From assembly GCA_947305645.1 (NCBI GenBank), contig CAMZEC010000002.1:1-64000 (forward strand): a stretch of DNA of 64,000 bases, written 5' to 3'. The position numbers were made by a program, and so were the translations under genes. Below are positions 8,010 through 56,454 of the stretch, one piece after another (the first letter of the stretch is position 1; each line of letters begins with the position of its first letter). The notes below the pieces were generated by a model, which searched no databases, was not told the origin of the DNA, and saw only the letters and a list, made by a program, of their open reading frames with translations. This DNA is from an uncultured Bacteroidales bacterium. GTDB lineage: Bacteria > Bacteroidota > Bacteroidia > Bacteroidales > UBA932.

Positions 8010-8058
8010 AATTCTCAAAGGTAATCATTTAATTCAAAAAATGAAGTATCTTTGTTGT

Positions 8059-10263
8059 ATGGGTGAGTTGACGAACGATATCCAGTTCCTTCCCGGCGTT
8101 GGCCCCAAGCGTGCGGCCCTAATCAAGCGTGAACTCGGCGTCAATACGCTCGAGGAGCTCATCCGTTTCTATCCCTACCGCTACATAGACCGCAGCAGCA
8201 TCACCCCCATAGTATCAGTTACTCCAGACCTTGCGTACGTGCAGGTACAGGGGAGGGTGGTAAGCCGCAACCTCATCAACATGAAGCACCTGAGCATCAT
8301 AGTGGAAGATGGCACCGGGCGCATGGAAATGGTTTTTTTCAAGGGCGTCAAATGGAATTTCGACAGGCTCGCCCCCGGCAGCGTATGGCTGTTCTTCGGC
8401 AAGCCGCAGTTGTTCAACGGACGCATCAACATTGTGCATCCCGAGGTGGATGCGCCTCAGACGGACCCGGCGGCGAAGGGTACCCTCACCGGCGTTTACC
8501 CAAGCACGGAGAAGCTTAAGAACGGTGGCATCACCGGCAAGCTGATGTGCAAGATGGAACGGGCCGCGCTGGCCCTCTGTCTTCCGGAAGTGCAGGAGAG
8601 CCTGCCCGACTATATACTTAAGAAGTACGGCCTGCCGTCGCTCGTGTTGGCGCTTCAGAACATACATTTCCCCTCCGACATGAGCGCTCTCGCGGCTGCT
8701 ACCCGCCGGCTTAAGTTCGAAGAGCTCTTCTACCTGCAGCTCAGCCTGCTGAAGCAGAAGTACGTGCGCAGCAGGGCGGCGAACGGCCTGGTGATGCCCC
8801 ATGTGGGGCCGGCCTTCCACGCCTGCTACAACGCGCTCCCGTACTCCCTCACGGGGGCGCAGCAGCGGGTGATAAAAGAGATACGGGCAGATCTTTCCGG
8901 CGGCTCGCAGATGAACCGTCTGCTGCAGGGAGACGTGGGATCGGGCAAGACGATGGTGGCGGTGCTCAGCTGCCTTATCGCCATTGGAAACGGCTATCAG
9001 GCGTGCATTATGGCGCCTACGGAAGTGCTTGCGCAGCAGCACTTTGCCAACATTCAGAAGTACCTCGCGCCCACCGGCGTGCAGTGCGCCCTGCTTACCG
9101 GCAGCACCACCAGAAAGGAGCGCAAGCCGCTGATGGCGGGGCTCGCGGACGGCAGCATTCAGTTGGTCGTCGGCACCCACGCCCTCATAGAGGAGCCGGT
9201 GCGGTACCGGGCCCTCGGGCTTGCCGTTATTGACGAGCAGCACCGCTTCGGCGTGAGCCAGCGTGCCGCCCTCTGGTCGAAAGGCCCCTTGATGCGGTAC
9301 GACCAGCGGAGTGGTGCGTGGGCACCGGTGAGCGATAGCGAACGTCCGGCCATCCCCCCTGGGGGGGCGCCGGGGGGGAGAACCATCGAAGACCAAAACG
9401 TGCCACCCCACGTTTTGGTGATGACTGCAACACCGATTCCGAGGACGTTAGCTATGACGTTTTACGGGGATTTGGATTTGTCCGTAATCGACGAAATGCC
9501 TCCCGGCCGCAAGCCCGTGCAGACCATGCTCATAGGGCAGAACCGCTTGCCGGCGATGTACCGCTTCATGCGGGAGGAGATATCCAAGGGGCGGCAGGTT
9601 TTCGTGGTGTACCCCATGATCTTCATAAACGAGAAGATGGAGGACGTGAGCAACGTGGAGCAGGGCTACGAAGACATTGTGAAGGCGTTCCCGCTCGACG
9701 AAGGGTACAAGGTGGCCATAGTCCACGGGCAGCAGAGCAATGAACAGAAGCTCTTCAATATGAAGGCTTTCGTTGAGGGCAGGGCGCATATCCTTGTTTC
9801 CACAACGGTGATAGAAGTGGGCGTGGACGTGCCGAACGCCAGCGTGATGGTGATTCGGAGCGCCCAGCGTTTCGGCCTGAGCCAGCTGCACCAGCTGCGC
9901 GGCAGGGTAGGACGCGGTGCCGAGAAATCCTACTGCATACTTGTCAAGGACCCCAAGACCGGAAAAGACGCCCAGGAGCGCCTGGAGCTGATGTGCGCCA
10001 CGGAAGACGGCTTCGAGATTGCGGAGAAGGACATGAAGATGCGAGGCCCCGGCGACCTCGAAGGGACGCAGCAGAGCGGAATGCCCATAGAGCTTCATAT
10101 TGCTTCCCTGCTTCGCGACGGCGCCATGCTGGACGAGGCTCGTTCATGCGCCATGAAGGTGCTGGATGCCGACCCCGGATTGGACAGGCCTCAAAACTCC
10201 GTTTTGCTCAAGGAACTGAGAAAAGGCAAGTACGACATAAAAGACTACAGCAAAATATCCTGA
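8059..10263 (+). CDS. recG: ATP-dependent DNA helicase RecG with an about 38-aa in-frame insertion
   Basis: GVGPKRA wedge N-terminus; GDVGSGKT, DEQHRFG, TATPIPRT, QLRGRVGRG; start moved to MGELTND because the -7 element TATCTTTG (8047-8054) lies inside the longer ORF. Confidence 0.95.
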   Translation: MGELTNDIQFLPGVGPKRAALIKRELGVNTLEELIRFYPYRYIDRSSITPIVSVTPDLAYVQVQGRVVSRNLINMKHLSIIVEDGTGRMEMVFFKGVKWNFDRLAPGSVWLFFGKPQLFNGRINIVHPEVDAPQTDPAAKGTLTGVYPSTEKLKNGGITGKLMCKMERAALALCLPEVQESLPDYILKKYGLPSLVLALQNIHFPSDMSALAAATRRLKFEELFYLQLSLLKQKYVRSRAANGLVMPHVGPAFHACYNALPYSLTGAQQRVIKEIRADLSGGSQMNRLLQGDVGSGKTMVAVLSCLIAIGNGYQACIMAPTEVLAQQHFANIQKYLAPTGVQCALLTGSTTRKERKPLMAGLADGSIQLVVGTHALIEEPVRYRALGLAVIDEQHRFGVSQRAALWSKGPLMRYDQRSGAWAPVSDSERPAIPPGGAPGGRTIEDQNVPPHVLVMTATPIPRTLAMTFYGDLDLSVIDEMPPGRKPVQTMLIGQNRLPAMYRFMREEISKGRQVFVVYPMIFINEKMEDVSNVEQGYEDIVKAFPLDEGYKVAIVHGQQSNEQKLFNMKAFVEGRAHILVSTTVIEVGVDVPNASVMVIRSAQRFGLSQLHQLRGRVGRGAEKSYCILVKDPKTGKDAQERLELMCATEDGFEIAEKDMKMRGPGDLEGTQQSGMPIELHIASLLRDGAMLDEARSCAMKVLDADPGLDRPQNSVLLKELRKGKYDIKDYSKIS

Positions 10264-34368: not shown

Positions 34369-35331
34369 ATGAAAATAAAAATCAGATCCCACAAACTTTT
34401 GCGGCTAAGTGCATTATTGCTTATGCCGCTGCTTTCATTGTATGATTTCTTATCGGCCGGGGCACTTGCCCCGGCGGTGCTGTGCCTGAATCTGTGGTGT
34501 TCTCTTCAGATTTTGATTCTCTATCCTTTGCCTCACGAGCCCGTGCATCCCTCAGTTACCGCGACTTTGGTTTCGATTTCCATGTGCGTATTATTTAAGT
34601 TGTTAGGGTTCCCGCCCTGGGCTTTCGTAATTGGAGGCACAACGCTGGCTTTCAGTTTCTCGCTCCACAGGGGCGTGTGCCGATTTGCCGATGTCCCGCC
34701 TTTGTTCATGGTTTCCACGGTATGGGCGGGAGTTCTGGATTATCTCAGTCTGTTGCATATGACTTTTTTCATAGTAACCGGCGTCTGGCTGTGCGTCCTG
34801 GTATCGTGGCGGGCTATGGCGTGGTCTCTGCTTTTCACGCTGGCCGTTTTCTTCGGCATGCAATATTATCGCATCTACACTCGCCGCACCTTGTTTCTGG
34901 GGAGAAGGAAGGAGGCTCTTATCCGTCAGGGGCAGAAGGGGTCAGGCTACAAATTGCCAATCCAATATGTAGATTCCGACAGCCGTTCGGCCGTCCTATT
35001 CAATGACGTTGTAAAGATAATGGAAGTAAAGAAGCCTTATTTGCAGGAAGACTTCAACCTTGACGACCTATCCCGTATGACCAGGACAAACCGTCTGTAC
35101 CTTTCCAAGGCCATAAATTTCCACTCGGGACGCAACTTTAACCAGCTGGTTAATTATTACAGGGTAAAATATGCCATGGAACTCATAAAGAAGGATTCCG
35201 GGTTGAAAATGGGAGAAGTGGCGGTCATGTGCGGCTTCCATACCACCGTATCGTTCAATATGGCCTTCAAACTCAACGAGCATACCACGCCCAGCGAGTA
35301 TGCCCGTAGCTTGAGAACTATAAGCAGATGA
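34369..35331 (+). CDS. Membrane-anchored AraC-family HTH regulator
   Basis: N-terminal TM helices; C-terminal NLDDLSRMTRTNRLYLSKAINFHSGRNFNQLVNYYRVKYAMELI...GFHTTVSFNMAFK; TATTTTTG at 34353-34360 supports ATG at 34369. Confidence 0.8.
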   Translation: MKIKIRSHKLLRLSALLLMPLLSLYDFLSAGALAPAVLCLNLWCSLQILILYPLPHEPVHPSVTATLVSISMCVLFKLLGFPPWAFVIGGTTLAFSFSLHRGVCRFADVPPLFMVSTVWAGVLDYLSLLHMTFFIVTGVWLCVLVSWRAMAWSLLFTLAVFFGMQYYRIYTRRTLFLGRRKEALIRQGQKGSGYKLPIQYVDSDSRSAVLFNDVVKIMEVKKPYLQEDFNLDDLSRMTRTNRLYLSKAINFHSGRNFNQLVNYYRVKYAMELIKKDSGLKMGEVAVMCGFHTTVSFNMAFKLNEHTTPSEYARSLRTISR

Positions 35332-36182
35332 AATTCTTTTTATTGTCAACAGATCATCTTCAAACTAAACTATGGTTTGGAGATGATGCAGATTATGCTG
35401 TAGCTATGAACTATGTGGCAATTACGGCATACAGATATAGCGTGAATGTAGTTGCCTTCATCTTAATGTCAAACCACGTTCACTTCATTTTGGAATGCGA
35501 AAAAGAAACAGCTGCCGACTTTGTTTCTTTCTTTAAGGAGATGTACGGGCTGTATCGTCGAAAACGCTACGGTGACACTCAATATTTGCGTGGACTCTTG
35601 GTGGATATTCAAAATGTACCACTGGAAAATGAATCGATGGAACGAGCAATAGCATATGTTCAGTCAAATAGCGTAGCTGCGCGTCTTTGTACACATCCGT
35701 CAGGGTATCCATGGGGTACCGGGAATGTATTCTTTGATTCGACCTTTTATGAAGTACATCCGGTAGGATCGCTTTCCGCAAGAAAAAGAGCAAGTATCAT
35801 GCACAGTAAGCTTCCGGTTAATCCCGGCTGGTCTTTGGGGCCTGGCGGTTTCATTTTGCCTAAGTGCTATGTTACCACTAGTTTTGTAGAAGGGTTGTTC
35901 AGAACGCCTTCCAGATATCAGTACTTTTTGGATAACTCTTCTAAAGTACGAAAGACTCGAGAGCAAGTGAGCCCGTCCTTTTCAGATCAATTGGTGTTAA
36001 CGGCGTCGCTTAACTTATGCCATTCATTGTTTCGAGCAAATAGTATTGATGATCTTTCTCCTTCTCAAACGGCTGAATTGGTAAAACAACTAAAGCGAAG
36101 ATTCTCTTCTGACGCTGCGCAAATAAGCAGGACTACCGGTGTGGCATATTCAGAAGCCCTTCGGATTCTTGAAAGCATATAA
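35328..36182 (+). mobile_element. REP-associated tyrosine transposase-like (RAYT, Y1/HUH family) CDS
   Basis: AFILMSNHVHFILE (HUH as HVH) and AIAYVQSNSVAARLCTHPSGYPWGTG matching the Y1_Tnp pattern YI..NPv.a.lv..p.dYpwSS; ATGA overlap with AraC gene. Confidence 0.82.
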
Positions 36183-55362: not shown

Positions 55363-56454
55363 GTGAAAACAAAGTTGCTCGGAAAAAATCCGGACGAGCT
55401 TTCCGCCCTGGCCGCAGACTGCGGGCTGAGGCCTTTTGTGGGCCGTCAGCTTGCTGAATGGCTGTATGTGAAAAGGGCTTCGGACTGGGACCAGATGAGC
55501 AACATCTCCAAGGATTCCAAGGCCCGGCTTCGGGAAAAATACGAACTCGGTACATCCGCTCCCATAGGCTCCGCCCGTTCCAGCGACGGTACCGTCAAGT
55601 ATCTCTTCAACGTTGGGCCAATGAGAGATCCGGTGAGCGTAAGCGAACGTCCGGCCATCCCCCTTGAGGGGGCTCAGGGGGTGGGATTATCAGACAGATT
55701 CGTCGAATCTGTCCTGATTCCGGATGAGGACCGTAAGACCCTTTGCGTCAGTTCGCAGGCGGGCTGCCGTATGGGCTGCAGTTTCTGCATGACCGGACGC
55801 CAGGGGTGGCACGGCAACCTGGATGTTGCCGACATACTCAACCAGTTCATCAGCATCCCGGAATCATCCGGGCTCACCAACGCGGTTTTCATGGGCATGG
55901 GCGAGCCTCTGGACAATTACGACGCAGTCTCCCGGGCCATCGGCATCCTGACTGACGAAAAGGGTTTCGGCTGGAGTCCCAAACGCGTAACCCTTAGCAC
56001 CATCGGCGTGCTGCCTGTACTCAAGCGCTTCCTGGACGAGCACCGCTGCCATCTGGCAGTCAGCCTCCACAATCCCTTTCCGGAGGAGAGACTGGAGATG
56101 ATGCCGGTGCAGAAGGCGTGGCCACTGGATGATATAGTCGCCCTGTTGCGCCAGTACGATTTTTCCGGCCAGAGGCGGGTCAGCTTCGAATACACCATGT
56201 TCGCAGGATGGAACGACGACAAACGGCATGCGGATGCTCTCATACGCCTCCTGGGAGGCCTGGAGTGCAGGGTGAACCTCATCCGCTTCCACAAGATACC
56301 GGATTTCCCTTACGACTGTGCCCCTGCCGTAAGGATGGAGGAATTCAGGGACAGACTAAACAAGCACGGATTGGTATGTACGATAAGAGCTTCCAGAGGC
56401 GAGGACATTCTCGCAGCGTGCGGAATGCTTGCCGGACAGCGCTCGCAACAGTAG
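55363..56454 (+). CDS. rlmN: 23S rRNA/tRNA adenine-C2 methyltransferase RlmN with an about 25-aa in-frame insertion
   Basis: CRMGCSFC radical SAM motif; MGMGEPLDNYD; VSFEYTMFAGWND; GTG start 4 nt after the -7 element. Confidence 0.93.
   Translation: MKTKLLGKNPDELSALAADCGLRPFVGRQLAEWLYVKRASDWDQMSNISKDSKARLREKYELGTSAPIGSARSSDGTVKYLFNVGPMRDPVSVSERPAIPLEGAQGVGLSDRFVESVLIPDEDRKTLCVSSQAGCRMGCSFCMTGRQGWHGNLDVADILNQFISIPESSGLTNAVFMGMGEPLDNYDAVSRAIGILTDEKGFGWSPKRVTLSTIGVLPVLKRFLDEHRCHLAVSLHNPFPEERLEMMPVQKAWPLDDIVALLRQYDFSGQRRVSFEYTMFAGWNDDKRHADALIRLLGGLECRVNLIRFHKIPDFPYDCAPAVRMEEFRDRLNKHGLVCTIRASRGEDILAACGMLAGQRSQQ

Follow-up and report, generated by a model that had tools for sequence, protein, structure and literature searches.

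An in-frame insert in recG as a probable copy of a small mobile palindromic element of Cryptobacteroides

The window analysed here, a stretch of 64,000 nucleotides from an uncultured Bacteroidales bacterium, contains a recG gene whose product has an additional segment between helicase motifs II and III. We therefore asked what this segment is, whether it belongs to RecG, and how it could have come to lie there in frame.

The RecG insert and its empty relatives

The recG open reading frame (8041-10263, + strand) is intact and open along its full length. It encodes an ATP-dependent DNA helicase of 740 residues with Pfam matches to RecG_wedge, DEAD, Helicase_C and RecG_dom3_C, and with a match to the T. 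maritima RecG structure 1gm5 at E=7e-143. Between motif II (DEQHRFG) and the motif III strand (TATPIPRT), 57 residues are found, versus 20-22 in most congeneric RecGs and almost none between the same two aligned blocks in 1gm5. In a preliminary description, made from the sequence alone, these blocks were said to lie normally only a few residues apart. Comparison with 110 other RecGs delimits the insert to 9289-9399 (+), where 37 codons replace 1-2 native residues for a net gain of 35 amino acids. The in-frame insert of the preliminary description is therefore real, but was started one codon early, at 9286: the Pro codon at 9286-9288 is native recG. In an AF2 model of moderate quality (26 sequences, mean pLDDT 70.6), which was used for this observation only, the inserted residues form a low-confidence loop.

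recG is under purifying selection (dN/dS about 0.06, with values of 0.05-0.12 among the compared species, whether or not they have the insert), and the insert is thus tolerated. No second copy of recG or rlmN, the other gene of the window discussed below, was seen in the same genome, where rlmN gave a single match. Within the insert itself, dN/dS is 0.4-0.64 and the substitution level (0.13-0.32) is much lower than the gene's synonymous level (1.1-1.6), indicating little protein constraint. That leaves a younger age, homogenisation or constraint as DNA as explanations. As a side observation, a single in-frame stop interrupts the N-terminal portion of the alignment in recG of two congeners (G006:C24 and G035:C56).

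Could the segment be an ancestral, functional RecG loop of the clade? Three close species (L019, L119 and L120) do have it. However, the loop is short in 88 of the 111 congeneric RecGs, among them that of L181, which is the sister of the window's species (97% SH-aLRT), and the same core is present at about 36 other gene sites. In the tree of 111 RecGs, the no-insert state needs 15 changes, at least 12 of which are forced by well supported branches. With empty relatives and forced gains or losses, an ancestral loop is barely credible and was rejected. The insert common to the window's genome, UBA1197 and L120, which all share the same non-repeat left flank LMRYDQ, is, when set against the empty L181, best read from the aligned sequences as one gain with one putative clean loss or replacement.

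Every source genome is a metagenome-assembled genome (MAG), and an assembly or binning artefact must also be considered. The same insert nonetheless recurs at the orthologous site in assemblies from independent studies (UBA1197, SRR12081303_bin.46 and the window's own genome), so that this explanation was also rejected, and can be given practically no credence. These assemblies are among the nearest named RecGs, which come from Bacteroidales MAGs, many of them from rumen (UBA1197, 89%; SRR12081303_bin.46, 88%; RGIG7799, 89%). The RecG of a genome placed in the same genus is almost identical to that of ‘Candidatus Cryptobacteroides avicola’ (L047/L155), and it is on this near-identity that we infer the genus of the window's DNA to be Cryptobacteroides.

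The same RecG loop is occupied in other ways elsewhere in the genus. It holds the element described below in reverse orientation in L128 and L148, an unrelated palindrome (GGAAACCGTGGCC...AAGTTTCC) in L125, L127, L132 and L144, and further inserts in L146, L153 and L168. Some of the unrelated palindromic families in this loop (L125, L127, L132 and L144; L146 and L153) have long outer arms that differ in sequence between genomes yet remain complementary.

A two-hairpin element within genes of one genus

The insert is not unique to recG. In the window's own genome (a 2.25 Mb MAG, 79% complete), four copies of the element were found. They lie in recG, rlmN, murE (antisense) and a gltD-like gene, each inside the gene and in frame; intergenic copies were sought through whole-genome pattern and BLAST searches only. 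Either of two findings would have refuted the preliminary description, namely that all close relatives carry the segment or that no other genomic copies exist, and both proved false. The rlmN copy lies in the window as well. The gene (55363-56454, +) has Pfam matches to RlmN_N and Radical_SAM, and the recG segment matches it over 52 bp at 88% identity (55630-55681, E=6e-14); the shared core had been recognised previously, but its length had been put at 43 bp. The whole copy, DPVSVSERPAIPLEGAQGVG, occupies 55630-55686 (+) in frame, where empty relatives read KYLF-KVGEQN-AVEAVMIP. At this gene in UBA1197 (L200, G061:C7:12903-13037), the element is present twice in tandem through an 81-bp duplication that is still in frame. 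In L307 (rlmN of G006), this loop of rlmN is occupied, again in frame, by another REP-like sequence, ATTTCTCCACTCGCTTCGCTCGGTCGAAATGACA.

The core of the element consists of 59 bp forming two hairpins. In recG, hairpin 1 (CCGG...CCGG) spans 9325-9349 (+), and hairpin 2, which pairs a C-tract with a G-tract and is near-invariant in the 75 copies read, spans 9354-9378 (+). An optional 5' hairpin, GGTGC-gtgg-GCACC, is present at 9313-9326 (+), as previously described, and recurs in many copies as GGTGCGTGGGCGCC. Hairpin 1 covaries. Across 36 distinct cores, 94.6% of the cells of the two hairpins are paired, compared with at most 53% in slid structures, and 39 cells have changed on both sides versus 9.2 in shuffles; in the outer stem, A-U and G-C stand in for C-G, while C-G and U-A stand in for G-C.

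To define the range of the element, the genus was searched with the pattern CCATCCCCCTTGAGGGGGNNCAGGGGGTG, allowing up to two mismatches. This yielded 69 copies, spread over 24 of the 400 genomes of the genus, while the reversed control pattern gave 0 matches. None was found in the other genomes of the order that were sampled (206 genera), nor, by exact match, in viral contigs. A search with the SERPAIP variant alone had suggested a species-specific repeat, a reading abandoned when the general C/G-tract pattern revealed a genus-wide family. In all, 75 copies were read; each is embedded in a long open frame, and together they occupy about 38 distinct gene sites. The host genes, in genomes that are all MAGs and named from recognisable motifs without a family search for each, include recG, rlmN, rlmI-like, MtaB-like, yggS, gltD-like, murE, purL, polA, dnaX, uvrA, uvrD, trpC, rsmG, rsmF-like, truA, gcvP and biotin carrier genes, among others. 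The confinement to one genus, the intragenic position of all copies found, the several palindromic families in the RecG loop and the 3' hairpin copied from the host (see below) all go beyond the preliminary description.

The element is strongly biased in orientation and frame. Sense copies outnumber antisense copies by 68 to 7, or by 33 to 5 when unique sites are counted (P=2e-6 against 1:1), and 67 of the 75 copies read ..PAIPLEGVQGVK.. in one sense frame (PAIPLEGVQGV). Since longest-ORF strand assignment is doubtful in GC-rich loci, strands were reassigned by a codon model and, for ten loci, by eye from protein motifs. The sense frame in use is open in 74 of 75 copies, but the three antisense frames are also commonly open (in 74, 61 and 38 copies), and thus openness alone does not explain the bias. 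Either the peptide is better tolerated or insertion is strand-biased; the two cannot be separated.

The sense bias, together with the abundance of hairpins, might instead suggest that the insert is removed or skipped at the RNA level, through self-splicing, excision by an RNase, or bypassing by the ribosome, for which T4 gene 60 and the mitochondrial byp elements are precedents. However, all copies keep the frame without stops in the host frame, which neither bypassing nor splicing would require, and antisense copies exist. Moreover, the hairpin-rich character noted in the preliminary description holds for the insert region as single-stranded DNA, which is more structured than shuffles (z -2.8), but not as RNA, the folding of which is no stronger than that of shuffles (z -0.88). 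A gathering search of the window against Rfam gave no match. On sequence data, the only kind available here, no evidence of RNA splicing or excision was found, and we regard removal at the RNA level as very improbable.

An inverted copy of host sequence at the 3' end

At the 3' end of the recG insert, an inserted arm (ACCAAAACGTG, 9392-9402, +; IR score 11) is an inverted copy of the adjacent native recG sequence (CACGTTTTGGT, 9409-9419, +; PHVLV codons), which is conserved in RecGs without the insert. The preliminary description had counted this second hairpin as part of the extra DNA; the hairpin exists, but half of it is native RecG sequence. The rlmN copy ends in the same manner, with an inverted repeat GACAGATTC-gtc-GAATCTGTC (55693-55713, +) whose right arm is native rlmN (E-S-V codons). 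Thus, in both genes where empty homologues were compared, recG (CACGTTTTGGT) and rlmN (GAATCTGTC), the distal arm is host sequence.

We then asked how general this arrangement is. An IR score of at least 8 was obtained on the 3' side in 46 of 75 copies (61%), compared with 1.5% of 754 control segments, and on the 5' side in 0 of 75. Counting one copy per unique site, the 3' inverted repeat is present in 22 of 38. Arms are 8-22 nt long with loops mostly of 3-6 nt, the longest being 22 nt in trpC (loop 3) and 21 nt in recG of L148 (loop 6), and they start 8-20 nt, mostly 11-14 nt, after the last G-tract. In all five antisense sites, the inverted copy is again at the 3' end of the element, indicating that it tracks the element and not the direction of the gene. 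Not all copies conform: in 24%, including those in purL, polA and one rlmN, the 3' IR score is below 7, and the fold-back step discussed below is thus either not universal or its product has decayed. The arms have ceased to match in one rlmN orthologue (L304), and at one rlmN site they range from perfect to absent, so that the hairpin is not strictly maintained.

The inverted copy points to fold-back template switching at the junction, as far as can be judged from the arms alone. By inspection and without statistics, the inserted arm seems native in its innermost 3-4 nt (GTG-CCACCC-CAC in recG, TTC-GTC-GAA in rlmN and GGGC-TAAAGG-GCCC in L148), as expected for a microhomology-primed fold-back; in recG, GTG at 9400-9402 is probably both native and the seed. 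At insertion, or when a polymerase stalls on the C/G hairpin, the 3' end of a host strand would fold back on this seed of 3-4 nt, copy 8-22 nt of flanking host DNA and then switch to the element, leaving a mirror copy. The inverted copy is most simply explained by such fold-back copying at the 3' junction, and it is undecided whether this accompanies insertion or follows it at a stalled fork.

The latter possibility deserves weight. Quasipalindrome-type template switching at a replication stall on the C/G hairpin, after insertion, would have the correct polarity; as a known mutational process, template switching both generates hairpins and preserves them (PMC8794818, PMC7202029), and arms at one rlmN site vary from perfect to absent, as noted above. 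On the other hand, the arm starts cluster 11-14 nt after the last G-tract and the arms reach 22 perfect nt, and a single event at the junction fits equally well. We consider an origin after insertion a plausible alternative, somewhat less likely than not.

Together, we conclude that the recG insert is probably one copy of a small palindromic element, mobile but non-autonomous, that belongs to Cryptobacteroides; tolerance and fold-back copying are the proposed account. Insertion into many genes with survival of the in-frame copies is well supported. Out-of-frame or disruptive insertions would be purged, leaving stop-free copies in tolerant loops, and the ribosome would translate through the insert, so that about 36 additional residues would form a flexible loop on the surface of RecG (translation is inferred). 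No host benefit need be assumed.

Mobilisation and known palindromic elements

No mobilising enzyme was identified, tests of RAYT, reverse transcriptase and target duplication being without support. RVT_1 reverse transcriptases, which would be expected to accompany a target-primed retroelement, occur in 6 of 15 element-bearing versus 8 of 15 element-free genomes, and none is present in the window's own genome. Flanking direct repeats are not in excess, although the 5' boundary is imprecise and sensitivity for a target-site duplication limited. A REP/RAYT-like system, in which one of the genome's HUH Y1 transposases would move the REP-like hairpin in trans, draws on five Y1_Tnp-like matches in the genome, one of them in the window (35328-36182), and on 1-6 in most congeners. 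REP/REPIN sequences with RAYT likewise are small hairpin repeats with covarying stems, with Y1 genes in the same genomes. But REPs are extragenic and flank their RAYT, whereas the element is intragenic; the Y1 transposase-like genes examined in the own genome are flanked by unrelated sequences and not by the element, and the Pfam match of the window's gene is below cut-off. Such a system is on balance doubtful; trans-mobilisation is not excluded. The Y1 (HUH) transposase-like gene at 35328-36182 has an SNHVHF motif, and at least two of the genome's Y1-like genes are flanked by imperfect hairpins of their own.

The likeness to Rickettsia palindromic elements (RPEs) drawn in the preliminary description is borne out: the element is interspersed (4 copies in its own genome, 75 in the genus), palindromic with covarying stems, in frame, and absent from close relatives. 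RPEs and the Wolbachia palindromic elements are likewise short palindromic repeats of several families, tolerated in frame in conserved genes (PMC2229807, PMC10969869); an RPE-bearing guanylate kinase is active (PMC2229807). According to a 2024 review, RPEs insert in frame within genes at unusually high frequency, and something comparable may occur in other prokaryotes (PMC10969869). However, RPEs are 105-150 bp long with terminal inverted repeats forming a long stem-loop, unlike the 59-bp core with two successive hairpins and a host-derived 3' hairpin; they also lie between genes and in RNA genes, whereas only intragenic copies were found here; and their hosts are intracellular Alphaproteobacteria, not a gut Bacteroidota genus. 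The Cryptobacteroides family thus behaves as RPEs do, but its membership among them is not shown, as length and terminal-repeat architecture differ and there are no sequence homology data. MITEs that form in-frame fusions (ERIC, the 107-bp Correia form) are also non-autonomous with open frames (PMC2229807), but no terminal inverted repeats were found here, nor, within the limited sensitivity noted above, a target-site duplication, and all copies are intragenic.

The host-derived inverted copy at the 3' end is a new finding, absent from the descriptions of palindromic elements with which we compared it. In template-switch (quasipalindrome) mutations and in the coding palindromes of Nematomorpha mitochondria, host DNA is similarly copied into perfect inverted repeats, also in coding DNA (PMC8794818, PMC6649704). 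No mobile element is involved in those cases, whereas the copy here is tied to the 3' end of one. This leaves room for an undescribed route of spread, in which the host 3' end would fold back on a microhomology seed, copy neighbouring DNA and switch to the element, such that a one-ended, orientation-fixed inverted target duplication replaces the direct target-site duplication and the element persists in a single reading frame and hardly anywhere but in coding DNA. We regard this as speculative and unlikely in its full form.

We found no report of such elements in Bacteroidota in the open-access literature that we searched, where absence is no proof. Most of what is known of palindromes that invade proteins comes from Rickettsia and Wolbachia, and their presence in a large gut Bacteroidota genus represents a recurrence in an unrelated phylum. 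With dozens of insertions made by nature, and with sister species in which the site is either empty or filled, the genus provides material on how proteins tolerate or recruit new segments, and the host-derived inverted copy offers a direct handle on the insertion mechanism of such elements.

Finally, a second REP-like family, TGTCATYCTGAGCGNAGCGAAGRATCT, was observed in the same genome in 22 copies, mostly in frame inside conserved genes (e.g. L104, L107, L108, L110, L113 and L114, on contigs C1, C4, C22, C26 and C30 of G000). Its host genes include wecB, xseA, thiL (twice), rfbB, rfbD (twice), dapF, argD and murE, among others, and the peptides read CHPERSEGS, ILSEAKDL, ILRFAQDD or RSFASLRM. 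In L111, L113, L104 and L108, tandem arrays of partial units of about 21 bp (e.g. TGTCATCCTGAGCGGTCTTCC) precede the copy; as 21 is a multiple of three, the host frame is kept.
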